This document shows positions 3,962 through 42,958 of a DNA stretch of 64,000 nucleotides, in pieces. The position numbers and the translations under genes are program-made. The notes beneath the pieces were generated by a model, which had not been told where the DNA came from, made no database searches, and saw nothing but the letters and a program-made list of their open reading frames with translations. Origin of the DNA: Zymoseptoria tritici IPO323 (Eukaryota > Ascomycota > Dothideomycetes > Mycosphaerellales > Mycosphaerellaceae); contig NC_018200.1 in NCBI RefSeq assembly GCF_000219625.1, positions 62,001 through 126,000 on the forward strand, in the 5' to 3' direction. Positions within the stretch are counted from its first letter, which is position 1. Every line of letters starts with the position of its first letter.

Positions 3962-4149
3962 TCACCGCCTTCGGGGCTGAGTTGCTCGTTGGTGATGCAT
4001 GCCCGAAATGTCCACTGCAGAAGAACGATCCAGTCAGCGCGCACTTCCAGACTTCTTTCAACTGCGCCGAGTCCCAAAATCCCCCCACTTGGCTTCCTCG
4101 GAGAAAATTCGGCAACGCTGACTGATTGACACGCAACTGATTAATTTTC

Positions 4150-17659: not shown

Positions 17660-19055
17660 AGACTAGGTAGAGAGAAGCGTAAGGCGCTAATAGATACGCC
17701 TAACGTACCTTTTAACGTCGAAGAAGAATTCGAATCCGACTACGACCCCGCCTACCCTAGTATAATTTAATATAAGGACGGCTCTTACTAGTATATAAAG
17801 GACTACTATATCGATAGCCGTAAAGGTCGTAAGAAGCGCGTAGCTCGATACGTAGTCTACCGCGGCGTAAACCTAGGGTTTAGACTAAATTAGACTACTA
17901 GGCCTAGAAAGCTATAGAGGCGTAGCGCTATAGTAATAGATAGTTTCGAGAGGCGAGGTAGACAACTTTAGGAAGTTGCGCCTTTAGCTATACCTATACC
18001 TACACCTATACGACTAGCCGCCGCACTACCTAAGGTACCTCCCCTATACTACCCGCTCGGTACTTAATTAACGTAGAGAACACTCCTTTTAAGAAGACAG
18101 ATCTCTATACGTAACCGCGCCGAACGCTACTATAACCGTACCGGTAAAGTAGAGTCGGCGCTAGTACTAGACGTAGAAGTAGTATAAGGTCTAGTAGCGT
18201 AACCCTCTTAGAACGATAATCGCGAATACTTCTACTATAAGACTTACTACTATCCCCGTACGTATCTACTTAATTAAGGTCTACGAGGTAACGACACCTA
18301 TAACTACTATAATAATAGTAGTCTCGATGTTAATCTATAGACCGAGAATAAGTAGTATATTAATAGAGGCTACGATATGTTCCGTAGTAGTTTTATCCTC
18401 TACGATACCGAACACGCAATAGTATGCTTCGGTTATACTCCGTTACTACCGGACGGCGGTAACCGCGACTCGTTACCTAACCCCGGCGATATATTCGAGC
18501 TACGACTAGCCTCCTCCTTCCGTCTACTAGCCTCCTCCTTCCGTCTACTAACATCCTTATTACGACTACCCCTATCGTTATTATAACTACCTCCGCCGTC
18601 GTTACGACTACCGCTACCTCGCTCTTAAAGCATATAGTAGCTAGATCTCGATGCTAATAACCGTAGATTATCTAGACTCGGACAGTAAGCTCGTACGTAC
18701 GAAGAATGTATACGCCGTCTTAGGGCTAAGGATCTACTTCCTCTAACTAGTAGTAACCTCGACTAACTAGTAGTCTCGGACTATAACTAGTAGCTTATTA
18801 TAAACTTTAATTAAAAGCTAGATAGTAATTAGATAACAACATACCGTCTATATAAGGAGAAGTAGTTTAGTTAAGACTTAGCCGACTTTTAAGTCTAGAA
18901 GTAGATCTATAAGACCTATCGTAGCGCTGCTCGTAAGGGCAATAAGAACAAGCTTCTAATAGCTCCGCCGTTAATGTCGTTAAGGAACAATATAGATCCT
19001 AGCGCAATTACCTATAGTCTACCGGAGCTCTCTATAGTTAAAGAGATACTAATCT
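17660..19055 (+). pseudogene. Helitron Rep/Hel gene, N-terminal segment
   Basis: Plus-strand sequence in which TAG/TAA interrupts otherwise continuous coding-like text. It begins with an acidic/basic N-terminus (VEEEFESDYDPAYPS) and goes on through an Arg-rich part and a region around 18240-18480. At its right end it reads LPELSIVKEILI, like the L-P-E-L-T-x-x-E-x-x-L-I motif seen before the Helitron Rep domain (DUF6570-like region in related proteins). The frame continues at 39816 once the LTR insertion and one target duplication are removed. Confidence 0.5.
19052..19055. repeat. Target-site duplication, left (ATCT)
   Basis: ATCT here and at 39812-39815 flank the LTR element. Joining the flanks with one copy restores the Helitron frame (LPELSIVKEILISRIYI), which confirms a simple insertion. 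Confidence 0.8.
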
Positions 19056-19329
19056 TGTGAGGGGGGAACTTCCAAAGGTTCCGATCTCCCGCGGATAGTA
19101 GCAGTACGGAGGTATGGAGTAGCATAGGGGGCAAAAAGGGCGGTAAACTGTACAATTAGAGTGAAAGGTAGGGGGGCAAAAGAGGTAGTATTAAGTGCTC
19201 TGTACTGTTGGGCCTCGTGTGCGTATCTAAGGTCCTTCCGGAGGTCGATGTCCTGATAGTCCTCCGACCTGCACACGAAGCTGAAGCTAGATACAGACCG
19301 TACGTGACAGTGCGATATTCCCTACTACA
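19056..19329 (-). repeat. LTR of the gypsy element (3' LTR on the minus strand)
   Basis: 274 bp, minus-strand ends TGTAGTAGGG and CCCTCACA. It differs from 39538-39811 at about eight positions by eye, all transitions of the RIP type. Confidence 0.9.
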
Positions 19330-19693: not shown

Positions 19694-21348
19694 CTACTGC
19701 ATGTCGCGTCCAGGTACGCGCTTGCTATCCTTGCCGATAAGTGAGTCGGGGACTTCCTAGGGTACTGCGATGTCCGTATCTCCCTACCTAAGCAGCTCAC
19801 GTTCCCTGTCGTCTACATCGTCAGGAGCGACTTTAGCTAGTAGAGGTTAGTACTTCTAGAAGTCGGTCGGGTGCTTGTCCTTAGCGTTGTAGTACGATCG
19901 GTTACCGAACGTATTCCTCTCCGCGTACTTAATGTCCTTATAGTTTGCCTTCACTCGAGCTACAGTCGCATCCCGCTGCTTCTTAATCTATGCCCTTAGA
20001 TCGACAATATTGAGGCGTATAAGCTTCTCTAGTTCGACGACGACTCTAGGGCTCTCCTACTTCTCGTAAGCAACAAGTGCAGTAGCGATGTAGTTGTTAG
20101 GTGTTAAAGACACAGCCGTAGGGAAGGCGTAAGGAATCTTGCCGTACTTGTTAATAAGACCGGAGGGTGTCTTGTCGGGGGCGGTTAGGTCTATGTAAGC
20201 TTTGCGCAGCATCTCCTAGTTACTAGCTTCGGCACATTCGAGAGAACTATCTATATATACAGCCACGAACTAGGGAAGAATCGTGCGACGTTCGGTCTCT
20301 GCCTTGGTGTCGACACTATATAGCAGATGCGGAACCGTAATGCGAACATTAAATGCCTTGCAAGGAACGTGTTCCTACTTAAGCTTATAGCGATCTAGGA
20401 AGTGTTGCGGCAGCACCGTATTATTAATCTTCTATACTGCTCCGTCTGCGTAGTTGTTAGCCCTTATCTACTAGTACTATTCCTAAAAGATCTCCTTCTC
20501 GTGCATCCTCTTAACGAGCACCGTGCAGTCCTTCTTGCCCTCGTCTGTTAAGGAGACCGTACCTTAAATCTAGTTAATACCGCGATTCTCCTCGACTATG
20601 CGGCTAACCGTAAGGTCGATGTGCTTAAAGGTAGTGTTGTCGCCCTTCTTAGTGCTTTTAGCGTAGTATAGGTATGACACCAGCCGGTGCTTATAGTTAC
20701 CTCGCAGAAGAACATATAGCAGCCAGTATAAGATGTCCTAGCGGATAAGCTGCTAGATCTGAGAGTAGCATATCGTGCGAAGCCATCCGTAGTTAGGCTA
20801 GCTATTAATTTCGCGCTAATGCTACAAGTACATGTCCATTTCCTTATTAATAATCTTGCAAAGGGCCTTGTCCTGTCCGATCTACGCGAAGAGGGGAATG
20901 TTAAGCGTGCCATTTCTCTTGAACTCGTTCTCCTAACCGGCCGTTAAGTACATCGCTTGGCGAGCCTTGTTAAAGAAGCCGTCAAAGTTGAGCTGGCCGA
21001 GTTCTCTACGTGGGACGTTATTGTCGAAGCGGTACGGCCTAAGGAAGTCCGATAGTCGAGACGGACGAGCATCCTTAAACTACATCTTGTACGTCTCGGA
21101 ACCTGTCTTCAGCTGGCTAAGCTTGTACGTATCGTACTTAAGGGTAGTAAGTTTGAAGAGCGTATTGTTCTTTGCCATTACATTCCCGGTCTTTACCTTA
21201 ATTCCGAAGTATCGAAGCAGGTCCCTCGCATGATTATAGCACAGGAACGTGCACTCCTCCTTTAGCTTCGTACTGTCCGGATATAGCAGCTGCAGGCATC
21301 GAAATAGCTGGTTCGGGGTAGCAAGACGTTGCGAAAGCAGAAGCTTCC
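19694..21348 (-). CDS. ORF3 C-terminal part: 2-oxoglutarate/Fe(II) dioxygenase-like protein (RIP-damaged)
   Basis: Continues ORF3 from 28281 after the nested chromovirus is removed; the codons across the target site join in frame (SLRKLLLSQR). With TAG/TAA read as damaged Gln/Trp, about 550 codons stay open on the minus strand with no indel. I see a candidate facial triad: H-I-D within TTFKHIDL (His codon 20621-20623, Asp codon 20615-20617), a distal His in TVPHLLYS (20327-20329), 98 residues later, and Arg in ERRTIL (20285-20290) 12-13 residues after that. This order and spacing fit the double-stranded beta-helix 2OG oxygenases (phytanoyl-type or TET/JBP-type). The protein also resembles, from memory, a widespread uncharacterised fungal family. 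No enzymatic claim can be made from a degraded copy. The frame ends at TAG 19694-19696 or a few codons later. Confidence 0.6.
21344..21348. repeat. Target-site duplication of the chromovirus, left (CTTCC)
   Basis: CTTCC here is repeated at 28276-28280 directly after the right LTR. Confidence 0.85.
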
Positions 21349-21563
21349 TGTCACATCTGCCTCCGCCGAATACCGACAATCGGCATCTGATCCCCTGCCT
21401 CAGCGGCATATGCACCCCTACTAGGGCCTTTTAAGCTCGTTTGAGCCAGATTGCGCCTGTAGTATAAGGATACGTAGAATCTCCTCCTTCCGAGAGAGTA
21501 TCGAATCGAGTCTGTTCTGAAGTGATTTATACTGCTACTCTATTCTTTACTGCACCTTTTACA
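21349..21563 (+). repeat. Chromovirus 5' LTR
   Basis: TGTCACATCTG...CCTTTTACA, 215 bp, nearly identical to 28061-28275. Confidence 0.95.
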
Positions 21564-21605
21564 CACGATTCGATCTACCCTACAGCACGACGAATTACTT
21601 CCGAG

Positions 21606-24600
21606 ATAGCTTCGTCTCGTCCCGGCCTATTAGGGAGTAAGAGTACCCGTCGCCGTACGAACGAACCCGCTAACGACCCGGAGACTATAGAAACCTCCAC
21701 TCAGACTGCCGTTGGCGACGACGAAGACGCCGAAGGCGGGCCTAAAAACCCGGAAGAACCTATCGGGCACCAGGATGCCGCCAACGAGGGCGAAGAAGAA
21801 CTGGAGAACCCTCCACAGGAAGAAGACACTCTACCTGAGGGAGAAGAAGACGACATTAATGAACAAATCCGCAAGGAAGAGGCCGCCACCGCCAGACAGG
21901 AGCGCCTCCTCCAGCTTAGCCTTCTCTAGGCATGCAACAAGGCCATAAGGGACCGCATCGCCTAGGTACAGAACGGATCTATCCCTACTGTCCTGCCCGA
22001 TGCCCTGGTTCGGCCATCCATCCCTAAGAACGCGCTCCCAAAGGCCCGGAATCCCTACATCTTCGAGGGAAAGAACCGCGCCGACTAGGAATAGTAGCAG
22101 GAAGACATTAACCGAGCAATCAACCGGGCTAGCATAGCCACCGACGAAGAAAAGATAGAATTCGCTAAAGAATAGATGGCGAGACCCCAAAAGTAGTACT
22201 AGAAGCGCCACCTTCTCGATAAGGCACCTGTTCGGCTAACATGGAGCGACATGCAGCTCGTGATACTAGATTCTATAGGTACAAAAGACGAACGCACCCA
22301 AAGAGCTATGGACAACATTAAAGAGGCCAAACAGGGCGACAAGACCCTAACCGGGCTAATAAACTACCTAAAAGAACAGTAGGATAAGATCGGTTACACC
22401 GACATTCCTAGGATGATCTATAAATTTAAGGGAGCTCTTACCCCGGCGGTCAGAAACAGGCTCGAACAGGGCCAAGTTACCCTTACGACCCTCGTAGATG
22501 CGGAGGAACGAGCCAACATATCGTACCGACAGATACAGGAATTCAACAAAAAGCGCTTAGCGAAGACTTTAGTCGACGAGACTAACGGAAGGCGCCCAAA
22601 CAAAAACAACAAGCCCCCGAGTAGGCCGAGAAGGGCCAAAACCCCCCCGAAGGCAGCTAATAAGGAGAAGTCGGCCACCGCCTGCTGGATATGTAGCAAA
22701 GAGGGCCACCAGCGCTAGGAATGCCCTAACAAGGACCAGTCGGGGAAAGGGAGAGCCCGCAGTAGATCTCCTCTAATCGCTGCGGGTTAAGTCTAGTACT
22801 TAGAGGCCTAAAGAAAGGCTGCCGAGCTAGGAGGAATTCCCCGAACTACAGGGGAAGGGCTGATACGCCTTAAAGTGGAGATACAGGGTCCTAATGGGAC
22901 TAAGACACTCCGAGCACTGCTCGATTGCGGAGCGCAAAGCAACTTTATGGACAACATGGCAGCTAAAGAGCTAGGCCTGAGCCCCGAGTTGGGGCAAACG
23001 GCCTAATACGTGGCACTAAACGGCCAGAGGATGGCTGTTTAGGGAGAATGCCGCGTCCCGTTCAAAGTAACGGACACTTAAGGACACATAAGAGGATGTG
23101 TAGAAACCTTCGTAGTCGGAAGAATCTACGGGTTCCAACTAGTCCTCGGCATGCCCTAGCTAGAACGATAGAACCCGAGGGTGAACTTCATCCGCAAAAG
23201 CATTACCTAGAAGGGGACGAAAGGCAGACAATAGAGGCCGGTTAGGCTCGTCTTACCTAAAGAGTTCTAGAAGGACGCCTCCGGCATCCCGTCAGGGCGC
23301 GTTTGGGCCCTTGCCGCTTAACGCACAGACGACGCGCCAAAAGAACCGGAACTTCTAAGCGAATTCTCGGATTTCGCGGACGTTTTCGTAGAAGGAAACG
23401 AGTCCCTTCTCCCCGAGACGGGGCCGAATGAGCTCAGTATCGACCTCGAAGAAGGTAAGGAGGCCCCGTACGGCCTATTGTACAACCTCTCTATAACAGA
23501 ACTGGAGACTCTGCGCAACTACCTCGCCGACAGCCTAGAGAAGGGGTAGATCCGCCCCTCGACCTCCCTAGCGGGGGTAGGCATCCTCTTTGTAAAGAAA
23601 AAGGACGGTGGCCTACGTCTGTGCGTCGACTATAGGGCCCTTAATGCCGTTACTATCAAGAATAGACACGCCCTGCCCCTCGTCTAGGAATCTCTAGACC
23701 AGTTAGCGCCGGCAAAGTTCTTTACAAAGCTGGATATACGAGACGCGTACTATCGCATCCGAATTAAGGAGAGTGACTAGTGGAAAACTGCCTTTCGGAC
23801 GAGGTATGGCCACTTTGAGTACACTGTGGTCCCGTTTGGGCTGACCAACGCCCTAGCAGTGTTCCAAGGATATATAAACCACGCCCTCCGGGGCCTGCTA
23901 GACCACTATGTTGTAGTATACCTCGACGATATCTTGATATACTTACAAGACGCCGAAAGCTACAAGAAACACGTCAGGATAGTCCTCGAGAGACTCAGAA
24001 GACACCGACTCTTTGCTAAACTGTCAAAGTGCGAGTTCTTTAAGCGGCAAGTCGGCTACCTTAGGTTCGTAGTAACCCCAAACGGGGTCGAAATAGAGGC
24101 AGAAAGGATCTAAGCTATCGCTGACTAGCCCCTTCCGGCCTTAGTTAGGGACATTCGCATCTTCATCGGATTTGCGAACTACTACCGCCAGTTTATCAAG
24201 GGATTCTCCCGCATAGCTGGCCTACTAAACCGCTTAATAGAGAGGGGCCCAAATAGTGCTAAAGGAGGACACCGACAGAGAAAGGAGGAATCAGTTCCCT
24301 TCGAACTCCTACCTAACGTAGTACAAGCATTCCAGCAGTTAAAGACCAGGTTTATTAAAGCGCCTATCTTGCGGCATTTCGACCTAAAACTGCCCATCCG
24401 CGTCGTAACAGATACCTCTAGGTTCGCCGTCGGGGCAGTACTATCCCAACCGCATAAAACGGAGGGTAAAATGCACTAGCACCTAGTAGCCTTCTTCTCT
24501 AGCAAGATAAACGCGGCCGAAAGGAACTATAACACACACGATTAAGAGCTTCTCGCTATAGTTAAGGCCTTCAAGCACTAGAGACACTACGTTAAGGGCG

Positions 24601-26474
24601 CTTCGCACCAAATTGAGGTCTTAACAGACTATCACAACCTGAAATGGTTCATAACAACCAAGCAACTGAGCCGAAGATAGGCAAGATGGGCAGAGCAGCT
24701 GTCAAACGTCGACTTCCGCACAACGTACAACCCGGGGTCGCTTAATGCCGCCGCGGACGGAGTAAGCAGACGCCTAGACTTAGAAGACAGGGACCACTCG
24801 GGACGGTGGATTAACGAAAGCGACAGTGCTCCTGCATTAGACACCCTTAGGCACTAACTAGGTCTGTCCGAAGGAATAACGGCCGAATCTAGCCCCGTTC
24901 GGTCTATAATAGCAGTTATAACCTACCATCTGCAGCTCGCCAGGACCTACTGCAGCAAAACGTACATAATAGCGAGCACTCTAATGGAAGAATTATCAGA
25001 CTCCCCGCTGATTGATATAATACGCGAAAGCCTGAAACACGACCCTATGGCATCGACAGTCGAACTAGCGATAAATAACCCGGATCCGCCGGAATAGACC
25101 CAAAGGTAGGCTATACAGGGCGAATTCCTCTTCTACGAACGGAAACTATACGTGCCTACGGGCCTAGTACGCCTAGCAGCCCTCCGCTAGTGCTATAACG
25201 ATCCCCTGGCCGGCCACTTTAGGTTTGAACGGACCCTAGAGCTGTTGCAACAGTCGTTCTACTAGCCAGACATAAGAAAATACGTTAAGGACTACGTAAA
25301 CAGCTGCTAGACATGCGACAGGGCGAAGCTACAGCGACATAGCCTATATGGAGAACTCTATGCGGAAGCTCCACCAAACGGGCCCTAGGAGGACCTAACA
25401 TTGGATTTCATTACCGATCTGCCCCCAAGTACGTTCATAGGGCACATATATAACTTAATCCTCGTCGTCATAGACAGGTGGTCCAAAATGGCCCACTACA
25501 TTCCTATACGGAAGGACATTAACGCCGAAACCCTCGCGGAGGTCTTCCTAAGAGAAATCTTCCGCCTTTACGGGACTCCTAAGTTAATTACGTCCGACAG
25601 AGGACTAATCCTTATATCCAAGTTCTAGAGCACGCTTTGCTACCACCTTAGGGTCCAAAGGGGCCTAAGCACCGCATATTACCCCTAGACGGACGGTCAG
25701 ACGGAACGTTAGAACCAAACGCTAGAGCAATACCTACGAGTGTACTACAACTACGAACAGGACGACTAGGCACAGATGCTGTCGGTAGCCGAATTCTCTT
25801 ACAACGATAGCGTTCATGCGACAACAGGGGTAACACTATTCCAAGCATGTAACGTTCGCGATCCAATTGCCGCCAGATGGCCCGACCTGCCCTAATTGGA
25901 GGGCAAAGCTCCTAGTGCGGCGGAAATAGCGCATAGAGTAATCGGCCTACAGAAAACGCTATATAAAAGACTAGCTGCGTCACAGGAGAGACACGCACGA
26001 TACTACAATGCTCGCAAAACTGCGAAAACATACAAGGTTAGCGACCGTGTGTACCTCTCTACTCGATATTTGAAGTCCATCCGGCCGTCGGAAAAGCTCG
26101 ATCATAAGTATGTCGGCCCATATAGGATCAAGCGAGTCGTGAACGACGTCGCGTACACGCTGGAACTGCCGGAAACGATAAATATCCATCCTACATTCTA
26201 CATCTCCCTGCTAGAGGAGGAAAAACCTGCCAAAATCACCGAACGGGCCCAGAATAGCCCAAAGGAGATCCGATTGGAGGAACCCGACGTTTACGTAGTA
26301 GACAAGATCCTGAAGCGTAAGAAACAACACGGCAGATGGATGTACAGGATCGCGTGGAAGGGCTGGCCCGCGTCTGAAAACACTTGGGAACCTGCGACTC
26401 ACATTAGCCCTGCTGCGATGAGAGCATTTAATAGAAGCACGGGAGGTACTAAGGGCGGTAGACCAGCACGATAG
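21606..26474 (+). pseudogene. Chromovirus gag-pol polyprotein with RIP stops
   Basis: A single frame of about 1620 codons without any indel, interrupted only by TAG and TAA. In order: acidic gag N-terminus; CCHC zinc knuckle (CWIC...GH...C, about 22683-22724, one codon now TAG); retropepsin-like LLDCGA (about 22915); reverse transcriptase with VDYRALN and YLDDILIY (about 23624-23944); RNase H starting VVTDTSRFAVGA (about 24405); integrase with an HHCC-type region (about 25210-25320), catalytic Asp in LDFITDL (about 25405), Asp in TSDRG (about 25593) and Glu in GQTER (about 25700); and a C-terminal chromodomain (VDKILKRKKQHGRWMYRIA onward, about 26300-26420). The probable initiator ATG GCT has become ATA GCT at 21606-21608, itself a TpG to TpA change. 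Gag and pol fused in one frame is usual in chromoviruses. Confidence 0.92.
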
Positions 26475-26826
26475 AGATACAAACGCGTTATCAGTTACTA
26501 TTAAGGCCCAAATGACACCAGTTAACACCACACTAACTCCTTAGTCCGGTTCCTAGTTACCTAAGAATTTTCTCTACCTTAGAAGAATTTCAATCTAATG
26601 AAATCCTAGGGGGGGAAATTAGGGGCCAAACGGGCCCCTAAGGACGACATTATCACACAACGAGAGACAATCGAGCACAGTAAAGTCATTTTGATTCCAT
26701 CTAATCCATAAGTCGCTAAGTCGCAGCAAAAAGAAACAACCCGGGCGTTACCGCGCCTATTAGTCCTGAAACGAGCCTAAAAGAGGCTAAAAGAGACAAA
26801 AGAAACACGAAAAAGCGCTTACATGC
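26475..26826 (+). other. Chromovirus spacer between pol and the antisense gene
   Basis: About 350 bp without coding signal. It holds a run GGGGGGG at about 26610-26616 and A/G-rich sequence. It is presumably 3' untranslated region for both convergent genes. Confidence 0.4.
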
Positions 26827-27690
26827 TTATTCCTTAGGCTCAAGGTCCCTAGAGAGGTCGTACTCGGTCGGACGGAGCACTCCCTCTACAACAGAGGCCT
26901 TCGAGCCCTTCTTGGCGCCCGCACGGGTGTGGACGGTGTCTAGAGCGGCCGAAAGGGCCCGAACGCGACGCCTTAGGCGGTCCTCGGTGGATCCTTGGGC
27001 CAGAATAAGTCGCTTGCGGGGGGTGTTAGGCACGTCTTCACCCTGTTGGGGTTAGTAGGGCACTTTTGGGCAAGAAGGGACCCAAATACTCACAAGCTCC
27101 CTCTTTCGCTTCACAGCCTCCTTAGCGAGCAACTTCTCGCGCTTTCTAAGCACAAGCGGTCCCGTCTGGTCGAATTCGGCCTTGCCTTGGTGCAGATAGA
27201 GGCCGTTGACACCGGTGAAGGAGTTGAAGCGCCTAAAAGGGGGTTAACGGAGCCAAACAGACCCGAACTAACTACATATACCCCTTAATGCGCACGTAGA
27301 CCGCCTTGTAGGCCGAACAAGCCGCCGCAGCTATCGCTCCGGTACCATCGGCGGCAATGGCGGCCCTGCGGAGCTTATTGGCCCTCGTGATGTCGCCTTT
27401 GACTAGTTCCGGCATCTTTTGACTACATTAGCCCCCGAAAGCCCCCTTTTGACCCTGTGTGTACATACCTGGAAACAATCGCGGTTAGAGCAATTGTGAC
27501 ACTTTAGGTGATATTCGTCCTCATCATTAGCTGCCTACTTGTCCGGCGATTCGCGCGCAAAGAGGCAGAACTGGGCCAAATCGGCCTTGTTTGAGGGCTT
27601 GTTAAGGCAGTTAACGCACGGATTGCCCTTGAAGATGCCGTTAGCGGCGAATTGCTTGCGTTAGGTCGCGATGGAGGCGGGTTGCGTCAT
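26827..27690 (-). CDS. Antisense four-exon Cys-rich gene inside the chromovirus
   Basis: ATG at 27690. Exons 27690-27469, 27415-27282, 27232-27094 and 27042-26827 (TAA) join to 711 nt, 236 residues. Intron 1 (53 bp) has GTATGT, CTAAT and AAAAG; intron 2 (49 bp) GTATAT and TTTTAG; intron 3 (51 bp) GTGAGT, a perfect TACTAAC and CAACAG. All three junctions keep phase. Exon 1 encodes six Cys as C25-x2-C28, C42, C64-x2-C67-x4-C72, a possible zinc-binding module. Exons 2-4 are Ala-rich and then basic and helical (RKREKLLAKEAVKRKREL). Two RIP-type stops occur, TAA at codon 10 (27663-27661) and TAG at codon 52 (27537-27535). Being antisense to the genomic RNA would protect the introns from removal during retrotransposition. 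Function unknown. Confidence 0.7.
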
Positions 27691-28060
27691 GATAGGCTCG
27701 TTCGGTCGCGGATGGGGTCGTTTGGTAAGAATGGCGGTTTTTCGATGAAATTCGAGGTCGTCCGGTGGAAAATAGGGCTAGAAAGGAACTGAACGCCACG
27801 TTAGCACCATACAGGCTACAAATGCCCCTTAGGGGGGCACTTTTGGACCTGTTTGGCCTTCGGATGGGATTGAGTCACACTTACTAAGTCTGCACAAGGT
27901 TGTTGAAGAAGAGAAGAACTCGAGGGATCCGAGCCTAGGTTTTAAAGCCGCAGTGGACCCTAATTAAGGCCTTAGGCTATTAAACTTGGCAAACACCAAA
28001 AAGAATTCACTCGAGGTGAAACCGTTCAGAGCGCGACGCTCTGCGCAAGGAGGGGGGCTA
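27691..28060 (+). other. Chromovirus 3' region and promoter side of the antisense gene
   Basis: No ORF. It should contain the promoter of the antisense gene that starts at 27690. The polypurine tract AAGGAGGGGGGCTA (28047-28060) ends directly at the 3' LTR. Confidence 0.5.
28047..28060 (+). promoter_or_regulatory. Chromovirus polypurine tract
   Basis: AAGGAGGGGGGCTA immediately before the 3' LTR, on the same strand as gag-pol. Confidence 0.8.
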
Positions 28061-28275
28061 TGTCACATCTGCCTCCGCCGAATACCGACAATCGGCATCT
28101 GATCCCCTGCCTTAGCGGCATATGCACCCCTACTAGGGCCTTTTGAGCTCGTTTGAGCCAGATTGCGCCTGTAGTATAAGGATACGTAGAATCTCCTCCT
28201 TCCGAGAGAGTATCAAATCGAGTCTGTTCTGAAGTGATTCATACTGCTACTCTATTCTTTACTGCACCTTTTACA
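28061..28275 (+). repeat. Chromovirus 3' LTR
   Basis: 215 bp, TGTCACATCTG...CCTTTTACA, followed by the target duplication CTTCC at 28276-28280. Confidence 0.95.
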
Positions 28276-28280
28276 CTTCC

Positions 28281-29328
28281 TTAGGCTATTAATCGTAGCG
28301 ATAATTTGAGGTGAGGCGTCCTTACAATCACAGGTCGTGTTCGTAGGTTCCGTAATAGGCATGCCGAGAGCGATCTGTGTTTCAGTTACTGCCTGACTTA
28401 CTAAGCGAGCCCTTCCCGTAGTGCGAACAACAGGACTCGCGTAGATACTCCCTCCGAGACCAGGGCTGGAAATAGATCTGCCGGAGTAGGGTATTTGGGG
28501 GCGGCCAGAGCTACTCTCGGAAGGGGTACCGCGCATAGGAAGACTGCCGAGATTGGCTGGCTTGTCCTTAGTTTTAGACCTCGTACTTATAGCGGGAGGT
28601 GCTTCAATCTGCTTCTAAGTGTTAGATCCAGACGCAATTTCCTTCTCCTTCCCCTTAGGCTTGTAGGGCACCATCCACCCACGACTATCTATGTGCCGGT
28701 TGTACGTGTTACGCACGATGTCAATCTGCTCCTGTGTAGGGCGATCGATTCCTCCTAGTTTAGCGACTGTAAAGAAGTCCTTAGTAGTATACTTAGTCCC
28801 TCTCGGATCTACATAACCCTATCTAGCGCCCTGACTATACCGACGAATGTATTCTCGTAAAACAAGCATAGCCACTGTCGTACCCTTATCGGACCAAGTC
28901 TTGTACTTCGAAGACAGCTTTCGAATCTCTTTCGCTATGTTCTCGGATTTGTACACGTATTGCCTTAGTTCCGGGTTTGCATCTATCACGTCCTGTCCCC
29001 ATTCTTTTGTGAGGGCGTCGTAAATGCCCTTCTTACGGTTTCGGGTCCTCCTACTATCCGTAGCTGCCGCCACCAGCCTCGGATAAGCAGCTGCAATACT
29101 GTCCTGTCCCGTGATCCTCCCGGTTCCTAAGGTAATAGGGACCCGGTTTATTCGTACGAAATCCTATATGCCTGCTACAAACTCTACTACTTTTTCTAAT
29201 CCTAATTCTAAGGTATTAACGAAGTCTAACACTACTCGCTCGCGGTCCGCGTCTAGCATGCTCTTAAGGAGACTCTCGAGTTTTCCTAGCTCTCTAGTGT
29301 TCTACGTAGTCGAGAAGGCTACACGCAT
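28281..29328 (-). CDS. ORF3 N-terminal part of the gypsy element
   Basis: First in-frame ATG is at 29328-29326. The frame runs on the minus strand to the chromovirus insertion at 28280 with only two or three RIP-type stops. It encodes a helical Glu/Leu-rich start (LDFVNTLELELEKVVEFV), a basic stretch (DSRRTRNRKKGIYDALTKE), a region with KYKTWSDKG and GWMVPYKPKGKEKE, and a Ser/Gly/Thr-rich linker leading to the dioxygenase-like part at 21348-19694. Together the two parts give 901 codons. It lies downstream of pol on the same strand, where retroviruses and errantiviruses carry env, but there is no signal peptide or membrane helix to suggest an envelope. Function of this part unknown. Confidence 0.6.
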
Positions 29329-29566: not shown

Positions 29567-29780
29567 CGAGGGGGGCTTGTGGAGGATGTTTAATTAGGTC
29601 GAAGGTCTGCGAGGACGCAGATAAGGTTCGTCTAGGAGGAAAAGGAGTCGTTAGGGGAGGTGCAAGGAGATAGGAAAGAAAGAAGATGTAGTAGATGTTG
29701 TAGGGAAGTCGGAGGTGTAGAGAAGATTAAGGCTTTTAAGTAGGGCGAGTAGGTAGAAAGCGGGTCCCTTGCTTGTTCGT

Positions 29781-30010
29781 AAATTGTGTGCGTGCTCGTG
29801 CTCGTAATTGTTAGAAGAGCTCGTAATTGTTAGGAAAGGCCTGTGATTGTTATGTCGGTAATTGTTGTATTAGTAATTGTTAGTTCGTAAATTGTGTGCG
29901 TACTTGTACTCGTAATTGTTAGAAGAGCTCGTAATTGTTAGGAAAGGCCTGTAATTGTTGTGTCGGTGATTGTTGTGTCGGTAAATGTTTCGCATTAGCA
30001 GTCTCGTAAT
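29781..30010. repeat. About 105-bp tandem duplication carrying TAATTGT motifs
   Basis: Two units, each starting CGTAAATTGTGTGCGT and containing CTCGTAATTGTTAG twice and AGGAAAGGCCTGT once (second unit from about 29886). TAATTGT or close variants continue singly to about 30375, for example at 30311-30375. Confidence 0.8.
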
Positions 30011-30627: not shown

Positions 30628-33600
30628 TAATGCGAATTATAGCCGCACTTAGATTCTTAGGTACTGTGATCGTTCTTCCGGGGACAGCGAGGATTCCCTT
30701 ACCCCCTGCACGATGTTCGGAGGTCCGGGAGCCGGTTCCCTATACTATTCAGCGGCAGGGTCGCCGCCCTAAGGTAATGCCGGCTCTTTATCCTTACTCT
30801 TAACACTTGCAAGCTATTTAGGGTTCAAGTCCCCGCGTGTTAGCTTTTCGAGCTTATTAATATGCTCGAGGTAGTTAGCAGGGACTACCCGAAGTATGTC
30901 CCTAGACTATGTGCCTTGGAGCTGTGCCTCGTCTAGCTCTGCAATCTTGTAGGTACCGGTGTCCAGGCTTATACTTATTACTCGGTAGGGCCCCTTCTAT
31001 CGAAAGGACAGCTTCTTATAGGTAGACTTTCGCTCGCCTCTTTTTAACAGCACGAGCTGCCCCTTCTTAAGCGGCTTGTTGTCGACATTATAGTTTATAT
31101 CCTAGTACTCCTTCTAGGCATCTCGTAGCCTGCGCTGCAGGGCGGTGACTTCTCTAACATCCTTCTTAGAGCAGAAGATCTACCTTACTCGAGCGGCTAG
31201 CAAGTCTTCGGTCGTACGCACTATCTTCTAGCTAATCGTTTTCCAAGTGTCGTACCGTAGCTCAATAGGTAGGACGACATTAAATGCATAGAAAAGACTT
31301 GCCGGCGTACATCCCGTAGACCTGCGAACAGTAGTGCGGTCTGCCTATAGTGCTGCGTGGAAAAAGGACCTCCAGCCCTTTAGCTTGCCCTGCGTGCACT
31401 TCGAGAGGACGTCTAGGATGTTGGGATGTCCACGCTCGACTAGACTGTTCGCTTTAGGGTAGTAGGCGGACACACGACTAAGGTTTGTATCTATTTAAGC
31501 TAGCAGTTGAGGCACATCGCCGTAGTTCTCAGGCCCTCTATCAAAGAAGATCCGGTTATAGGCTCTAGTGCGTAAAAAGACGTCTTCAAAAAGAAACTTC
31601 GCGACCTGCCTTAAGCTTACACCTTAATTCTGCCCCTTGTTTACGATCCTTCCTTCCGGCTATCTAGAGAGAGACTCCCTAGCTATGATAATGCTTCCGG
31701 AGCTATCGACATAAACGACGTCCACATGCTACGACTCGCCAATATAGCTGTTGTATCTTGGGTGCAGCTCCGATATACTCGCTAGTCTAGACGATCGAAG
31801 AAGGCACTTGGGGCACTTTCCGACGAAATCTCGGACCTGCTTATACAGTCCCTGCTAGTAATACCGACAAGCGATCTTTATGTAGGTCCCTTTACGCCCT
31901 CTGTAGCCGGAGGTAGGGTCCCTATAGAGGGTACGGATAATCGACTTCTGCTTAGACTCCTTGTCGATAACTCTACACAGCGGCTTGTTAATTCTTTTCT
32001 AATACTATAGGCAGCGTTCCCTAACTAGGTAGCGAGATGCCCGTTTCTTAAAGGCATACTAGCTGTTCCTGTTTACTCCTACCGGTCGTCGAAGGGTTAG
32101 GAGGTAGTATGCCATATCGTAGTGGAAGTCCGAGAGGAAGCTGTTAATACTGCTCCGAACAAGCTCCTCTTCTAGAGTAGGGGTAATCTCTTCGGCCTCG
32201 ACACGATTCGCGTACGCTGTATATAGCGTGCTGTTAATTATTTCTTCGTAGTCCTGCTTATGCTCCTCGTTAATGTTATCGGACTGAGTACGCGGTCGTC
32301 GAGACAGCGCATCTACAGTAGTGTGCAGTCGGCCGGGAACATGCTTTACATCGAAATCAAACAGTCGTATCTATAAAAGCCACCTTGTTATTACTACGTT
32401 AGGCAAGTCGGTCGGTAGTCGGTTTAACTAATGGACTAGAGTATTCGCGTCTAGCTTAAGTAGGAAGTAAACACTGTAGAGATAGTGCTTTAGCTTTTTT
32501 AATGCCTTCAAAACACCGAGACACTTAAGTTTCCTAGTATCGAACTTTCGCTCGTTCGGCTTCTAGATGCCGCTTTTATACCGAGATAGGTGTCTTGTCT
32601 TGTAGTTGTCGACATCTCGTTGCATAAGGACTGCTCCGAACCCATCCCCGGATACATTAACAGCAAGGATGATCTGTCCTCCCGAAACGTAGTCTATAGT
32701 CTTAAGAGCTAGTGTAGTAACGAGAGCCTTCTTCAATTTCTCTATCGATGCGTTATGCTCGGCAGTCCAATACTAGCACACATTAGGCTTTAGTAGATTG
32801 TATAGCGGAGCTGACACCTGTGCATACTTCTTAATCTAGATGCGGAAGTACACGACTACGCCTAGGAATACTCGAACCTCCTTAGGGTTGTCTGGAGCAG
32901 GCCACTCGGTGATCTTAACGACTCGTGCTTTATTAGGGTAACGGCTATGCACATCACAAACATACCCGACAATTAGTACCCCTGTCGAGAACCATCGCGA
33001 CTTAAGAGCTGATATAGTGAGTCCGGCTCTCTTAATGTCGGTAAGGACTACGTTAAGGTTCGTAACATGTTCAGCAACCTAACGTCGGATGCCGGGCTCG
33101 GTTTCCTCGTCATCGTACGTAGTGCGTGGACCTTTAACTCTAATATCGTCCAGAAAGGGGCGAGCTCGGTGATTTATGTGCTCCTGAAGGATAGTGGTCA
33201 TAATCCTTTGGAACTGAGCGACCGAATTCGTTCCGCCTATAGGAATCCCTGTGTGCCTAAACAGCCCGAGCGGTGTATAAAAGGAGGTAAGGTCCCGACA
33301 GTGCTCGGCTAGGGGTATTTGGTCGTATCTAGAGAAGAGGTCTATAAGCGAGGTAGTAGTGTAGCCTGCGAAGTCTGCAGAAAAGGAGTCTGCGTCCGGT
33401 GGCATGTTAGCATCCCTTAGCGTGACACGGTTTACTTCTGTAGCTGAGTTAATAAGTCGGTACTTCTTCTCCTCCTTCTTTTCCTGGACACTCTCCCCTT
33501 CCGGCATAGGGTCCTTAGCTTTTAGTGGCTTTAGGTTGTCTAGCTTCTTTTGCACGATAAACCAGGGGTTCCGGTATGCACTACAGGATGGCTCGATTAC

Positions 33601-34270
33601 TCCATTACGGGCTCGCTTACTAACCATCTGTATTACTACCTTCTCGAGGGCTGCGGGAATAGGGAAGTTCTTACACTGCCAGGCCTTATGCGGAATCGTG
33701 CGGATCTCTACTAGTAGGGAAACATCCTCGTTAAGGCGACCGACATATAAGAAATCCTAAGCAAGAGACTTCTCTCGTCGGAAGAGATAGGCATAAAAAA
33801 GCTCGAGTTCTTTCGGCTTTAGTTCGATTGTAGTCTTAAAGCTGTTCATGCGTTCAGGGGTAAGTCTCGAACCCTTCTCGATGTCGGAAAACTTGGGGAT
33901 AAGGTACTTGTTATCCTAGGGGTGCGTGCTCGGTGTGAGTTTGGCCTTATTTTCAAGACATCTCTGCTGCCAGTTGAAAGTACTACTAGGGGGCTTGCTG
34001 CTAGTGTCGTGAATACTACCATTAACGGGTCTGATCTTATCCGCCTTGCGTTTGTATATGGTGTATGTATTCGGAGCGGATCCTACCTCCTATTCCGTTT
34101 TTCGCTAGAGGTAATCTAACTAAAGAATATCCGCCCACTTAATGATTAGCGACGCTACTCGAGCTTGTAAGGTGGTTTCCTAGACTATATCCGAGGGATT
34201 AATGGTGTATTTTGTCGAGGTAATGGTCCGGAACTCGTCCTAAGCCCTTACTTTATCCTAGGTGCTAAGG

Positions 34271-34374: not shown

Positions 34375-34413
34375 TACCGCGTTACCGGGGTGTCGGCAGC
34401 CTACTCGTTTCCC
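34375..34413 (-). promoter_or_regulatory. -1 ribosomal frameshift signal joining gag-pro to pol
   Basis: The last gag-pro codons on the minus strand read TCG GGA AAC GAG TAG. They contain the slippery heptamer GGGAAAC (34413-34407) in the required X XXY YYZ phase, two codons before the stop at 34403-34401. Slipping back one base enters exactly the pol frame. After a 6-nt spacer a hairpin can form: GCTGCCG (34400-34394) with CGGTAGC (about 34379-34373, one G-U pair). Heptamer, spacing and structure all match established -1 frameshift sites. Confidence 0.75.
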
Positions 34414-37400
34414 GACTCCTCGGGCTTGGTTGTGTAGAATGCCTCGGTCGGACCGTACCTGTCTCCGTATCCCTTAACTCTAGTAAAGGTAATTGTTGTT
34501 CCATCCGGTGTCGCGATTGTACACTCGAGGGACCCGTCGTCGCAGTTTACAGATCTGAGCCGCACCTGTCTAGTCCATAGTCGGCTAAGAAGGAAAGGTG
34601 CAGTCCGTGCAACAAGAAACGACGAGTAGGTAAGGACTCCTATAACCTCGATCGGTACCCGCTCTGCAATACCTAGGAAATCCGCACAGCTACTAACCGT
34701 ATTCATCTGTATTAGCCGGCAGGTGCGTATGCTAACACCCGCTCGCTTTACCGTAGACTAGCTTATAATATTCCCTTTAGATCCCTTGTCAATTATAGCA
34801 CGACGCTCCCTATGTCGTTTCGGACCGACAATGCATTCTACAACGGGTAAGGGTATAATAACATAGTCTCGGTCGTTAAAGGACAACCGCGCGTCCTTAG
34901 GGTCTTCGTACAGGTCCTGCATCAGTCTCGGGGGCATTATAACATATAGCTCCTTAATTATAGGACCGAGGAAAGCAGGGTTATCGTCTTCTATCTCTTC
35001 TACGAACCTATTACGTGCATAAAATCCAGAGGGCAGGATGTGCTTAGCCGTAGCACTGCTAAGTTCAAACTCGACTCGCACCCCGTAAGAACGAAGCGGC
35101 TTATCTATATCGTACTAGTATGCTGCAGTAGCAGCAATGTTGTCCTCCTTAACGATAATCGACAGCCCGGCTTCCTTAGCAGCTATTACGAAGTCTTCTT
35201 AGTTCCGAGCATAGCGCTTAAGAAGTCCCCTAGCTATAGCAGGCGAGGCAGCGAGAAGCTCCCTAACAGGGATATTAGACGGCTACGCTAGTATCCTGTC
35301 GAGCAGCACCTTTTCTATGTTAAGTCGCTCTCGAAGGTAAATGTCCCTTCTCTAAGCACCCTTTCTAGTCGCAGTAGGCTTCTGGTTCTTCTTTTCCTTC
35401 AGCAGCGGGAGGTTAACGAAGCCCTAAGAAGGAGGGGTAGGATCTAGATCTATGCTTCTAGTAGGGTCCTAGGTTTGGCTATCGTTTGCGGACTGCGGCT
35501 GGTCACCGGTATCAAATGCACTATTACTAGTAAGAGTGCCCTATATCGACTGCGAGCCTTCTTCGACTACCTTCATATACTCTTCCGTGTTAGGGATCTT
35601 GCAGGCATCGATCTTAATAGACACTGTCTTCTTTGGCTTCACAACACGGCTGGTATTATTGCTCGGCTTGGCGGCTAGCTCCTTTCCCTTAGTCGTGCTT
35701 ATTAGCCTAGTCGTAGCGTTCGTAGACAGAGAGTTAGTACGGATCTAATTCACATAGGGGGCACGGGGGTCTCGCTTATCAATATACACCAGATCCTTAA
35801 GAACCGTACTTCCAGCGACGATGTTGCACTAGTTTCTATTTATGTTCGTCGCTAGTGCGGGTCCTATAGGGGAACCTAAGCCTTAGCCTAGGTGACTAGG
35901 TTGAGCTAGTAACGAGGGTACAGGTTTTAAGGTCGGTAGAACAGGGCTAGGAACAAGTGCCGGGTTAAGAGGTGTACTCGGTACATGTGTCCGAGGAGTA
36001 AAGGCAGCTATAGGTAGTTTATAGGCTGGCTAGTACTTCTTAGCATCCTTAATATTCGCATCGGCAGGCTAGGTGATAGCCCTTCCCTATACTTTCTCGA
36101 TAGCGGGAGCTATTATCCGGAGCTTAGGCTGATCCGGCCAGTTCCTGAACTGCACCTTTCGTCTGTTAACATTACCTTCTCGTCCGATATACTACTTCTT
36201 TTCACTGTCGCGGTGTGTCCAGCCCGCACTTAGGAGGTAGTTCATGTACTTGCATTCGTGAACACTATGACCGGGTTTAAAGCAATAAAAGCATGTATAC
36301 TTGGAGGCTTCCTAGTAAAAGGGGTTCGAGCTGCTAGACGACTAATAGGGCACTAGTCCAGGTCTAGCGACATTGTACGAGTAGTACTCGGGAGAATCAG
36401 GGGTGTCATCGGTATACAGCGTAGCCATATAAGACTTCGGAAAGTCTCTAGGTGGATTGACAGCTATACGTGCACTTCTCTCAGCTCTCGCACGCTCAAT
36501 CTTGGCAATAGTTATCTTAGAAAGCTTTTTAGACAGGTCCTCTATGTCCGGCAGCTTCTCTTTTAGTACGCGTAACGACCAGACTCCATCGTTCGATGCA
36601 TCTAGCTTCGGATACCTCTTCTTAGTCTAGTTAACAAGCTAGCTGGTAACCTGGCTCTTACCCTTGCCGTACAACTCCTAATAAGCTATGCGGCTTGTAA
36701 CGTACTTAAGTGTCGCATCGTACAATAGAGGAAGCTAAGTATAGGAGGCTAGGTTCGAGACGTCCACTTCGAGCTTGTTTATAATTTCCTGTCCTACCTC
36801 GGAGGGCAAGCCTTTAAGGAAGAGGTGGTATCGAGCGACTTCGTTGCACTGTTTAAAAGGTATCCTTTTCGAGACCGCTTTGAACGTTATAACGTACTAA
36901 CGCAAGTTATCCTTCTGTCCGGAGACATCCTAGACTCTTTCCTTTGCGCACAGCTCCTCGAGGAAAGGGAGGCTGTACTTATACACCTAGCTATTATAGC
37001 ACCGATAGTAGGAAAGAGCCTCTTCCTTAAAAGCTTCGTAGTTTTCGCTGTTAAAGCCTAAAAGACTCTCGAGCTAAGCTCGAACATCCGGTACCGAGTG
37101 TCGAGCAGCAAGTCGGATCCTTTCCCTATTAGGAGTGCGTAATCCTTTAAAGTACGAATTAAAGAAGTCGGCCATAGTCTGGAAGAAAGTCGAGGCATCC
37201 TTGCCGTCGAAGGATAGAGTACTAGGCTCTCTAGGGAAGGGTACGCGACCACGGTAAGCAGGCGCTCTGTTGTTGTAAGTAGCCGCGGTAAGGGTAGTAA
37301 CAAGATCTGCGATATTTATGTTAGCAGGCTAGGGAGCAGGAACTGTACTATAGGTCGCTGCAGTAGCAATCCCTTCGGCTTGAGGGAGAGCCTCATCAGT

Positions 37401-37613
37401 CGACCCTTCAGTCGAATCAGTCGCAAAGCGAGCTGATAGAATCCTATTGCTATCGCGGAAGGCGCGAGCATCGGAAGGTACCTAGATAGGGCTATTAGTT
37501 CCGGAAGCCTCGCCGGTGCTTAGGGTGTTGCGGAGAATCTCCGAAGGAGTATTAAGATAGCTACGACGGGAGGGTCCGTCCAGGCCGTTGTTAAGAGTGT
37601 TATTAGAAGACAT
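34401..37613 (-). pseudogene. Gypsy gag-protease (RIP-damaged)
   Basis: ATG at 37613-37611 (MSSNNTLNNG...). The frame is open on the minus strand for about 1070 codons apart from TAG/TAA codons at former Gln/Trp sites, ending at TAG 34403-34401. It contains a capsid-like helical region (about 37200-36600), a CCHC zinc knuckle C-F-Y-C-F-K-P-G-H-S-V-H-E-C (about 36253-36300), a long Pro/Ser/Thr linker, and near its end a retropepsin-like active site AIIDKGSKGN (about 34765-34800). The active site reads D-K-G where D-T-G or D-S-G is expected; T to K is not a simple RIP change. The protease thus sits in the gag frame and pol follows by -1 shift. Confidence 0.85.
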
Positions 37614-38064: not shown

Positions 38065-38394
38065 CGCGTCCTCGAAAGGTCGCACCTCTTAGACTGTTCT
38101 AGCCAGCTAGAGCCGAGAACCACACATCGCATTCTCGTACCGAGAACCTAGTGTCGGTAGATCTAGGCAGGGCTTATGTGCTCCCTGGTTCCAGTGCCGG
38201 GTTCGTAGCGATATCATCTGCCATTGCCTCGGAAAGCAACACCGAGGAGCGGTCGGACGATCGGTGCGATAGGGCAACGTTTCTTAGGGTATTCGCGACG
38301 CCTACGCCATGATGGCTAGTTAGTCTCGTTTCTTATAGCCATTCTATCGAGAGCACGGGACGGCTTACGTAACCGAGTATTCTCTAATGTCCAG

Positions 38395-39045
38395 CATATC
38401 TATTATAGCTACTACGGTGGTCGGTGAAGTTTTCCAGGTACTTAAGGGCTCTTTTTCCACCCTGTTTCTCTTTCTTTTCTTCACGAACGCTACGTATAGG
38501 CTGTGCTACACGCCTGGCCTACCTACCTCGGCAGGTGGTCGGGCATAGGAAAAGCTATAGCAGTACGATTTTGGCCCTAGGAGGCTTGTTTTCACCCTAT
38601 TTTGCATCCGCTAGAGTCGATATTATCTCCGTAGCAGTGTCGCGTTTTAAAGGCGTGTAGCTAAGCTCGGTAGCGTAGTCGCTCGTACAGGTGTAGGAGC
38701 GATAATCTCCAATGTCTATCATGTCTATTATAACTTTCACCGCGACCGGTAAAGTTTTTTAGGTACTTGAGGGCTCTTTTTCCACCCTGTTTCTTCTTCT
38801 TTTCTTCACGAGCGCCTCGTATGGGGTTTACTGCACGCCTGGCGTACCTGCCTCGGCAGGTGCGGTCGCTACTCGTCTCGCTTACCTTCACTGGCAGGTG
38901 GTCGGGCATAGGAAAAGCCATAGCAGTACGATTTTGGGCCTGGGAGGCTTCTTTTTACCCCAAATCGCGTCCATTATGGTCGATATGCTCTCCGCTATAG
39001 CGTCGCGCTTTAAGGGCGTACATCCGAGTCCGGTAGCGCGGTTGT
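38395..39045. repeat. Duplicated leader unit of about 0.3 kb
   Basis: Copies at about 38395-38665 and 38712-39045 share AGGGCTCTTTTTCCACCCTG, CTTTTCTTCACGA, TACCTCGGCAGGTGG-type and GGCATAGGAAAAGC blocks. The second copy has an extra segment of about 45 bp near 38860-38900. Differences include many RIP-type transitions. Confidence 0.75.
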
Positions 39046-39537: not shown

Positions 39538-39811
39538 TGTAAGGGGGGAACTTCCAAAGGTTCCGATCTCCCGCGGATAGTAGCAGTGCGGAGGTATAGA
39601 GTAGCATAGGGGGCAAAAAGGGCGGTAAACTGTACAATTAGAGTGAAAGGTAGGGGGGCAAAAGAGGTAGTATTAAGTGCTCTGTACTGTTGGGCCTCGT
39701 GTGCGTGTCCAAGGTCCTTCCGGAGGTCGATGTCCTGATGGTCCTCCGACCTGCACACGAAGCTGAAGCTAGATACAGACCGCACGTGACAGTGCGATAT
39801 TCCCCACTACA
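39538..39811 (-). repeat. LTR of the gypsy element (5' LTR on the minus strand)
   Basis: 274 bp, minus-strand TGTAGTGGGG...CCCCTTACA. Less mutated than its partner at 19056-19329. Followed on the plus strand by the target duplication ATCT (39812-39815). Confidence 0.9.
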
Positions 39812-40205
39812 ATCTCTCGTATTTATATCTAGGTCGAGGTCTTTACGATTCATAGTTAGTAGTAGGGAGGTAGGGGCTACACTATCGCATTCCTCCGTAA
39901 TATTGTTTAGCTTACGAATAAGCTACTATACGAGCTAGGAGCCCTTAATGTCCTCGTATTAAAACCGCGCTAGGTAGAGGGTAAGACTCTTAGTAAGGAA
40001 GAGTAGGCGAACCGTTAACGCTAGTTCTTACGCGAGTTTACTATTCGTAAGGACGCTATACTACGCTAGCTAATCTACCTTAAGGCTAACTATCCCGGCT
40101 ATAGCGACATCGCTATCGATAAAGCTCGTATTACTAACCTTCCTATAAATAGCAACATTATCGGCTAGATGCCTACTACTACCTATAACGCTAACGCCGG
40201 CGAAG
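39812..40205 (+). pseudogene. Helitron Rep/Hel gene, second segment
   Basis: Continues the N-terminal segment after the LTR insertion (SRIYI...VEVF) and runs to the first SINE-like insertion. The end reads TTTYNANAGEG and continues in the same frame at 41073 when the insertion and one 14-bp target copy are removed. RIP-saturated. Confidence 0.55.
40192..40205. repeat. 14-bp target-site duplication, left copy
   Basis: TAACGCCGGCGAAG, repeated exactly at 41059-41072 after the inserted element. Confidence 0.9.
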
Positions 40206-41058
40206 ACGGCCGAACAGACTGCACCTTCACGCGGTGGCCGTCGTAAGTACCTTCCTCGGAAGGGAAACTAAGACAGTCTGGAAGAAACCTCCTCGAAAAC
40301 CTCTCGAATCTGCCCGAAATCCTTCTCGAAATCCGCCTCTCGAATCCGCCCGAAATCCTTCTCGAAATCCGCCTCGAAATACAAGCACAGAACAACAGTA
40401 CAAGCACAGAACAACAGTACGATTCGAACGAATAGCCCTCTACGCTACGAACAAGAAGAAGAAGAAGAAGAAAAAGAAGCAGTCCACTCTGCCCTATACG
40501 CGCACCTCCTCGAAATCCGAATCGAAATCGCATGTCCCTAGAGACGTCGTCGCCCTCGAAAGGAAGCATACATGCACTTCAAAGAGCTGGAACTCGGTGG
40601 AATCCATAACTCTGCGATCAACCTGCGTAGCTGTATACGTTTGGAAGCGGCATACAGTTCCACAAAGGCATATTGAGGACAAGAGAAGACAGCGAGTTGG
40701 ACAGCTGCTTCTGCTTTTGCACTGCTTTTGCATTCAAATTTGCAGCGTGCGTGCGAAGCGGAAGGATCCGCTGAAAATTCTGCAAAAAGCTTGGCGGCTG
40801 AAAATTCTGCAAAAAGCTTGGCGCGAAAATTCTGCAGCCCCGGCTGCAGACAACGACACTCGTTTGATTTCCTTTGTCTTGCGCTGTTTTGAAGTCCTTT
40901 GGCATTGCCTTAGGCACGGGGTCTCCCCTAAGGTCAAAGAATACTAAAGAACCTGATTGTAATTAGATCTACTGCTTTGCCTTTAGGGCAAAGCCGTCCT
41001 ACATAGTCTTAGACTCTAAAAGGACGTAAATGGAACAAACAAACAAACAAACAAACAA
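40206..41058 (+). mobile_element. SINE-like non-LTR element, copy A (853 bp)
   Basis: Starts ACGGCCGAACAGACTGCACC, ends in a tail of five AAAC units, and is flanked by exact 14-bp duplications TAACGCCGGCGAAG. These are hallmarks of target-primed reverse transcription. Just before the tail is a perfect 8-bp hairpin, GCTTTGCC (40974-40981) with GGCAAAGC (40987-40994). It also holds a 27-bp tandem repeat (40771-40797 and 40798-40824) and GATTCGAAC at about 40421. A 237-codon frame (40234-40947, GTG at its start) spans most of it but has poly-Lys and repeats, and it is broken in copy B, so I do not claim a protein. Few RIP changes. Confidence 0.8.
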
Positions 41059-42205: not shown

Positions 42206-42958
42206 GTTTGTTTGTTTGTTTGTTTGTTTGTTTGTTCCATTTACGTCCTTTCGGAGTCCAAGACTATGTAGGACGGCTTTGCTATAAAGGCAAAGTAGTA
42301 GATCTAGTTACAATTAGATTTTTCGGTATTCTTTGACCTTAGGGGAGACCCCGTGCCTAAGGCAATGCTAAAGGACTTTAAACAAATGCGAGACAAAGGA
42401 AATCAAACAAGTGTTGCAGCCTAAGGCTGCAGAATTTTCGCGCTAAGCTTTTGCAGAATTTTCAGCAGATCCTTCCGCTTCGCACACACGCTACGAATTC
42501 GAAAGAGATGCAGCTGTCCAACTCGCTGCCCCCTCTTATCCTTAATATGCCTTTGTGGAACTGCATGCCGCTTCTAAACGCATACAGCTACGTAGGTTAA
42601 TCGCAGAGTTGTAGATTCCACCGACTGTTCTAGCTCTTTGAAGTGCACTTTTCCGTAGAGGACCCGAATCTCTAGAGGGAAAGAGGTGCGATTTCGGTTC
42701 GGATTTCGAGGAGGTGCGCGTATAGGATAGAGTGGACTGCTTCTTCTTGTTCGCAACGTAGAGGGCTGTTCGTTCGAATCGTGCCGTTGTTCTGTTATAG
42801 CTTGTATTTCGAGGCGGATTTCGAGAAGGATTTCGGGCGGATTTCGAGAGGTTTTCGAGGAGGTTTCTTCCAGAGGTTTCTTCCAGACTGTCTTGGTTTC
42901 CCTTCCGAGGAAGGTACTTACGACGGCCACCGCGTGAAGGTGCAGTCTGTTCGGCCGT
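42206..42958 (-). mobile_element. SINE-like non-LTR element, copy B (753 bp, inverted)
   Basis: Minus-strand orientation: the 5' end ACGGCCGAACAG lies at 42958 and the (AAAC)n tail at 42206-42233. Flanked by 14-bp duplications CCCTCCGCGATCTT. It shares the 5' end, central blocks, 3' hairpin region and tail with copy A but has more RIP-type changes and a deletion of about 100 bp, including one 27-bp repeat unit. Identical 5' ends in both copies argue that both are full length and not 5'-truncated LINEs. Confidence 0.8.

Follow-up and report, generated by a model that had tools for sequence, protein, structure and literature searches.

Mobile elements that encode their own 2-oxoglutarate (2OG)/Fe(II) dioxygenase are known in two other kinds. 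In the orchid Phalaenopsis, unusually large long terminal repeat (LTR) retrotransposons of the gypsy class carry an extra open reading frame (ORF) for an AlkB-type 2OG-dependent dioxygenase, kept in several subfamilies and shown to act as an N6-methyladenosine demethylase in vitro (PMC9289625). Fungal DNA transposons and Helitrons encode TET/JBP enzymes, for which a role in countering C-to-T hypermutation has been a matter of speculation (PMC12730594). Fungal Ty3/gypsy elements have LTRs, gag and the order reverse transcriptase (RT), RNase H, integrase, but in the passages covered no third, dioxygenase ORF appears, and the word dioxygenase is absent from the main text (PMC3248453). Here we describe a stretch of 64,000 nucleotides from Zymoseptoria tritici IPO323 (NC_018200.1, positions 62,001 to 126,000; hereafter the window) that holds a damaged Ty3/gypsy retrotransposon with a third gene, ORF3, downstream of pol, whose product is by homology firmly predicted to be a 2OG/Fe(II) dioxygenase of the double-stranded β-helix (DSBH) fold. 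It resembles the orchid elements in class, size and extra oxygenase ORF, but those have a plant host and an enzyme of the AlkB/ALKBH5 branch, whereas ORF3 is fungal and encodes a predicted two-domain enzyme of about 900 residues from the PhyH/DUF1479 branch (compare PMC9289625). With the fungal TET/JBP elements it shares the fungal host and the self-encoded dioxygenase; those, however, are DNA transposons with enzymes of another family (PMC12730594). Beyond the papers cited, titles and abstract openings (most subscription journals not covered) gave no PhyH-type or other 2OG ORF in a fungal retrotransposon, and the literature on GIG2/DUF1479 offered no help.

On the minus strand the element extends from 39811 to 19056; gag, pol and ORF3 all share this strand. 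It comprises the following features (window coordinates):

39538-39811, minus strand: 5' LTR, 274 bp, TGT...ACA; target-site duplication ATCT at 39812-39815
34404-37613 (limits approximate), minus strand: gag(-protease) frame with internal stops; CCHC zinc knuckle at 36252-36293
30700-34140 (limits approximate), minus strand: pol frame with RT, RNase H and integrase zinc-binding domain
29769-29984, no strand: two tandem 108-bp repeats in the spacer between pol and ORF3
28277-29328, minus strand: ORF3 N-terminal part, conserved N-domain; C-x-C at 28324-28332
21349-28275, plus strand: nested Ty3/gypsy element splitting ORF3; LTRs at 21349-21563 and 28061-28275
19694-21343, minus strand: ORF3 C-terminal part, predicted dioxygenase domain; C-x2-H at 21230-21241
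Sites in the ORF3 C-terminal part, minus strand: H-x-D at 20615-20623; codon of the predicted distal ligand at 20318-20320 (Tyr here); Arg at 20288-20290
19056-19329, minus strand: 3' LTR; target-site duplication ATCT at 19052-19055

Analysis of the frames and of the LTR pair bears out the first-pass annotation, made from the letters of the window alone, in placing ORF3 inside the LTRs, downstream of pol and in its orientation. The two LTRs are identical at 266 of 274 positions, all eight differences being transitions, and a purine-rich tract is visible by eye just inside the 3' LTR. Four Pfam models match pol above their cut-offs (RVT_1, 53.1 bits; RT_RNaseH_2, 53.5; RT_RNaseH, 50.4; Integrase_H2C2, 36.3), with RT at approximately 33477-32962, RNase H at 32769-32368 and the integrase zinc-binding domain at 31959-31789; this order, the TG...CA ends of the LTRs and the target-site duplication are those of a Ty3/gypsy element. 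The integrase core domain rve was unmatched in the Pfam scan of this damaged copy of pol, zinc-knuckle models match gag below their cut-offs, and the protease label does not come from a tool. Two families of direct repeats are present in the leader, at 38378-39038 between 5' LTR and gag (160 and 171 nt; 82% and 78%). The stretch 19694-29328 consists of parts of two unrelated elements, because the plus-strand gypsy element within it has its own LTRs (212 of 216 aligned bases identical), its own target-site duplication (CTTCC at 21344-21348 and 28276-28280) and 39 other places in the genome (40 of 191 candidates scored; fragments uncounted). The end of its pol, at 25896-26474, resembles a chromodomain by eye.

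The association of ORF3 with the element was surveyed in the genome of 39.7 Mb in 21 contigs, in which the window is G000:C19:62001-126000 and whose features all point to a filamentous ascomycete with active RIP (repeat-induced point mutation). An ORF3 DNA query gave 43 matches, some of them fragments of one interrupted copy, and a 2-kb pol query 41 (for each, 40 of 44 candidates). For 32 of the 43, pol was matched no more than 5 kb away, on the same strand and in the expected direction; the other 11 are the window copy, split by its insert, seven whose pol lies 7.7-19.4 kb away and three on contigs that lack such a pol match. LTRs were scored at 40 of 85 candidates, and the check for pairs used 16 ORF3 matches (of 43) and 17 pol matches (of 41). 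Sixteen LTR pairs lie 12-23 kb apart, and 15 of them enclose both ORF3 and pol, 11 with a length of 13.7-14.8 kb and four, including that of the window, of 19.4-21.2 kb. The place of ORF3 in the LTR element is thus firm: it is a component of the element, and not the unrelated host gene between LTRs that had been named as a possible refutation.

ORF3 spans 29328 to 19694, and its minus-strand frame (29328..28277 and 21328..19697) is interrupted only by TAG and TAA stops, 24 of them within the 544-codon C-terminal part, and by the nested insertion. We compared it in 28 loci, namely 26 of the main family and two of a subfamily (L017 and L018; partly covered, 63-69% amino-acid identity). Over the aligned part the C-terminal frame is gap-free in all 28, the window's included, so that the preserved frame seen at first pass holds for the family. 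Each locus has 12 to 38 stops in this part; the total of 693 TAG, 86 TAA and no TGA is as expected from CpA-directed repeat-induced point mutation (RIP). At 20 of the 24 stop sites of the window, one or more of the 25 remaining main-family loci read CAG, CAA or TGG. The RIP index TpA/ApT is 1.69 in the C-terminal part, compared with 0.57 and 0.59 for gene-rich DNA on the flanks. Transversions cannot arise from RIP. Counted by codon position 1/2/3, they number 21/14/38 and 11/9/36 between the main-family locus L029 and the two subfamily loci (one-sided binomial p 7e-4 and 2e-6), and 8/6/20 between L017 and L018 (p 0.002); three further main-family rows gave nearly the same counts against the subfamily as L029, and transversion-bearing columns within the main family number 11/2/16. 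This computation shows that ORF3 was once a protein gene under purifying selection.

A profile built from ten copies of ORF3 matched four proteins at 1e-58 to 1e-78, and widened profiles yielded six and then 56 homologues (scored: the 7993 candidates sharing most words). Six have named sources (Caloplaca, Ptychographa, Xylographa, Trichoglossum, Penicillium cosmopolitanum and Endocarpon), and the unnamed ones are probably fungal as well. Against a profile of 18 homologues (A4), the C-terminal part of ORF3 aligns over 453 columns with an E-value of 1.4e-82, and the N-terminal part with 2.2e-6 (probability 89). With two short patterns per scan, no relative was confirmed in IMG/VR viral contigs or in bacterial and archaeal genomes. 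PhyH/DUF1479 enzymes share the signature H-x-D...H...R. For the residue survey 44 of 58 homologues were kept (at least 450 residues), and all 43 that cover the four sites have His, Asp, His and Arg; the loss of these residues from homologues, which would have spoken against a dioxygenase, is therefore not seen. Among the 28 loci, H236 is present in 23, D238 in 24, H337 in 16 and R347 in 26, and the remaining loci have Tyr, Asn, Tyr and Cys, respectively, all RIP-type changes. The H-x-D at 20615-20623 and the Arg at 20285-20290 (an Arg-Arg pair) had been recognized correctly. The distal His, in contrast, had been put at 20327-20329 (residue 334 of the C-terminal part), a position at which 24 of 28 loci have His and which is yet not the column of the distal ligand; the alignment of homologues moves that ligand to residue 337 (20318-20320), which is Tyr in the window and 11 other loci. 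A pattern C-x-C...C-x2-H, putatively a small metal site, occurs in 31 of the 33 homologues that reach 700 residues (no shuffled control), and the window ORF3 retains both halves. Six shorter homologues of 512-533 residues (P0005, P0016-P0018, P0021 and P0026), one of them from the lichen Caloplaca, carry precomputed PhyH domains and, by their length, would be without the N-domain.

Direct Pfam and PDB-sequence scans of ORF3 gave no useful match, and a PDB-sequence scan with profile A4 only matches of E 0.29 or above; the family assignment comes through the homologues. PhyH (PF05721) matched 3 of 17 above and 5 below its cut-off, leaving 9 unmatched together with all ten ORF3 copies, and precomputed PhyH domains are present in 16 of the 56. 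The DSBH fold was found for the model of P0005 alone, to which ORF3 is linked by profile; among the 50 structural matches listed for it, PhyH, EctD, proline/leucine hydroxylases and fungal alkaloid oxygenases are closest, with 13-14% identity in the rows of YbiU (4rgk), GIG2 (6akz), EctD (4mhr) and human PAHX (2a1x). The resemblance to a 2OG/Fe(II) dioxygenase suggested at first pass is thus upheld by homology. Kinship with TET/JBP is not: Tet_JBP (PF12851) had no match at E of 1 or below in ten ORF3 copies and 17 homologues, PhyH being matched instead, in homologues only. TET, JBP and AlkB do not appear among the 50 listed structures, which excludes none of them. An AlkB-group 2OG oxygenase model likewise had no match in the Pfam scans (no dedicated AlkB test was made), nor did any env-type family (no search was aimed at env-like identity). 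The homologue P0005 shares the DSBH fold with PhyH/DUF1479 dioxygenases, and some homologues pass the PhyH cut-off, but the ORF3 family differs in the long N-domain, the C-x-C...C-x2-H pattern and the mobile setting.

Taken as a whole, it is quite probable that the window copy is a RIP-killed member of a family of Ty3/gypsy LTR retrotransposons of about 13.8 kb, whose third gene would encode, from its own start, a protein of about 900 residues. This protein would combine a conserved N-terminal domain and a putative metal site (C-x-C...C-x2-H) with a dioxygenase of the PhyH/DUF1479 branch at its C terminus, where His-Asp-His would hold iron and the conserved Arg 2OG. Such retrotransposons, this suggests, once carried their own chemistry, perhaps for resistance to silencing. 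More tentatively, and with somewhat less than an even chance, the enzyme may hydroxylate or demethylate a nucleic-acid (less likely a protein) target and so weaken host silencing of the element; action on nucleic acid has the greatest appeal as a reading, since such enzymes already occur in two other kinds of mobile element (PMC9289625, PMC12730594). The closest listed structures, with substrates taken partly from general knowledge, would also suit a metabolite or protein hydroxylase of the PhyH/EctD kind whose benefit to element or host has nothing to do with silencing. We regard this alternative as possible though on the doubtful side, given the long N-domain and the pattern in 31 of 33 long forms (a pattern not looked for in those enzymes) and given that the mobile-element precedents act on nucleic acids (PMC9289625, PMC12730594).

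Several observations weigh against the reading of ORF3 as an element-borne dioxygenase directed at nucleic acid. In ten copies, with their RIP-damaged letters, no Pfam 2OG model was matched, and an AlphaFold2 model with the equally damaged ORF3 row first reached a pLDDT of only 30.7, so that the DSBH core looked for in a structure prediction stands for P0005 but not for ORF3 itself. At the putative C-x2-H site 23 of 28 loci have Tyr in place of His, a RIP-type change. Of the 27 loci other than the window's, 24 have the N-terminal part free of gaps; in L024 and L036 it is broken, and L017 has no match to it. All 51 matches to a homologue query in this genome contain stops (46 of 61 candidates scored), and therefore no working copy is seen there. 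The homologues in other fungi are only possibly retrotransposon genes, and LTRs of the second family described below were not found in the stretches L037 and L039. Solved relatives, moreover, largely act on small molecules, which speaks against a nucleic-acid target.

A distant homologue used as query revealed a second gypsy family, strongly diverged and with its genes in the same order, to which some of the 51 matches belong. At locus L037, 1067 aligned residues of its pol show 43% identity to the window's pol, and an ORF3 relative lies downstream on the same strand; of the two copies read, L038 is less damaged and retains H-x-D, distal His and Arg. For eight of 20 ORF3 fragments of this family, pol of their own family lies on the same strand at a distance of at most 2.5 kb; the rest have it farther away or not at all (16 of 34 pol rows used; short and cross-family rows excluded). 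At G000:C2:3241363-3261827 a window-family copy (LTRs 3243838 to 3257660) seemingly lies inside a second-family copy, whose pol match stops one base before the window-family LTR.

A FastTree tree with midpoint root was built from 51 of 52 rows, coverage having excluded one row and the limit of 450 residues the shorter homologues. In it the second family joins P0044 (support 1.0), and the window family stands across the root beside P0047 (support 0.308). The two families being apart, either the gene belongs to an old element-borne family or it was captured twice; the evidence of the tree is weak because of RIP damage and midpoint rooting. An old lineage is likely. Independent capture would make the homologues ordinary ascomycete host genes and ORF3 a repeated, temporarily useful passenger, and besides the separation in the tree the long contigs of some homologues (e.g. 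P0040 on 3.75 Mb) would agree with it; we hold it to be unlikely, since both families share the place, strand and two-domain make-up of ORF3, no stop-free homologue occurs among the 51 matches (from 46 of 61 candidates), and the five PhyH matches of the genome sit at other places. Accidental host sequence between the LTRs of the window copy has in its favour only that pol is commonly the last gene of Ty3/gypsy elements; the survey of copies (15 bounded by LTRs, the frame in 28 loci, and a second family) rules it out, and it has practically no chance of being right.

The old lineage could be taken further: an ascomycete gypsy lineage with a nucleic-acid-oxidising enzyme of its own, of a new PhyH/DUF1479-like kind, against DNA methylation or RIP, with the fungal and metagenome family of about 800-1000 residues being largely its ORF3 or host genes derived from it. 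We think this combined proposal rather improbable. An oxygenase-encoding retrotransposon nevertheless makes it testable whether mobile elements of RIP-proficient fungi carry anti-methylation or anti-deamination enzymes, and the natural homologues are ready material for biochemistry that leaves the element itself untouched.

As to the genome setting, 17 DNA-methyltransferase matches were found, of which three, at two places, are stop-free, in line with RIP. Several of these PF00145 matches, with TAG/TAA stops, are found near contig ends (e.g. C5:2859497, C8:8793, C1:6082691 and C2:3842341) and resemble a methyltransferase-bearing subtelomeric repeat. TET/JBP expansions were reportedly treated in work published in PNAS in 2014; the genome has two Tet_JBP matches, both below the cut-off (G000:C2:3851960-3852211, 30.6 bits; G000:C17:16084-16332, 27.1 bits), each less than 20 kb from a contig end and from a methyltransferase match. 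Just outside the 5' LTR of the outer element, nested inverted-repeat arms of 66-203 nt (89-99% complementary) span 2.7 kb at 40205-42959 and look like a palindromic or terminal-inverted-repeat-type element. Low-GC blocks lie at 1001-4000 and 41001-47000 of the window (0.38-0.45, against about 0.51-0.59 in gene-rich parts).
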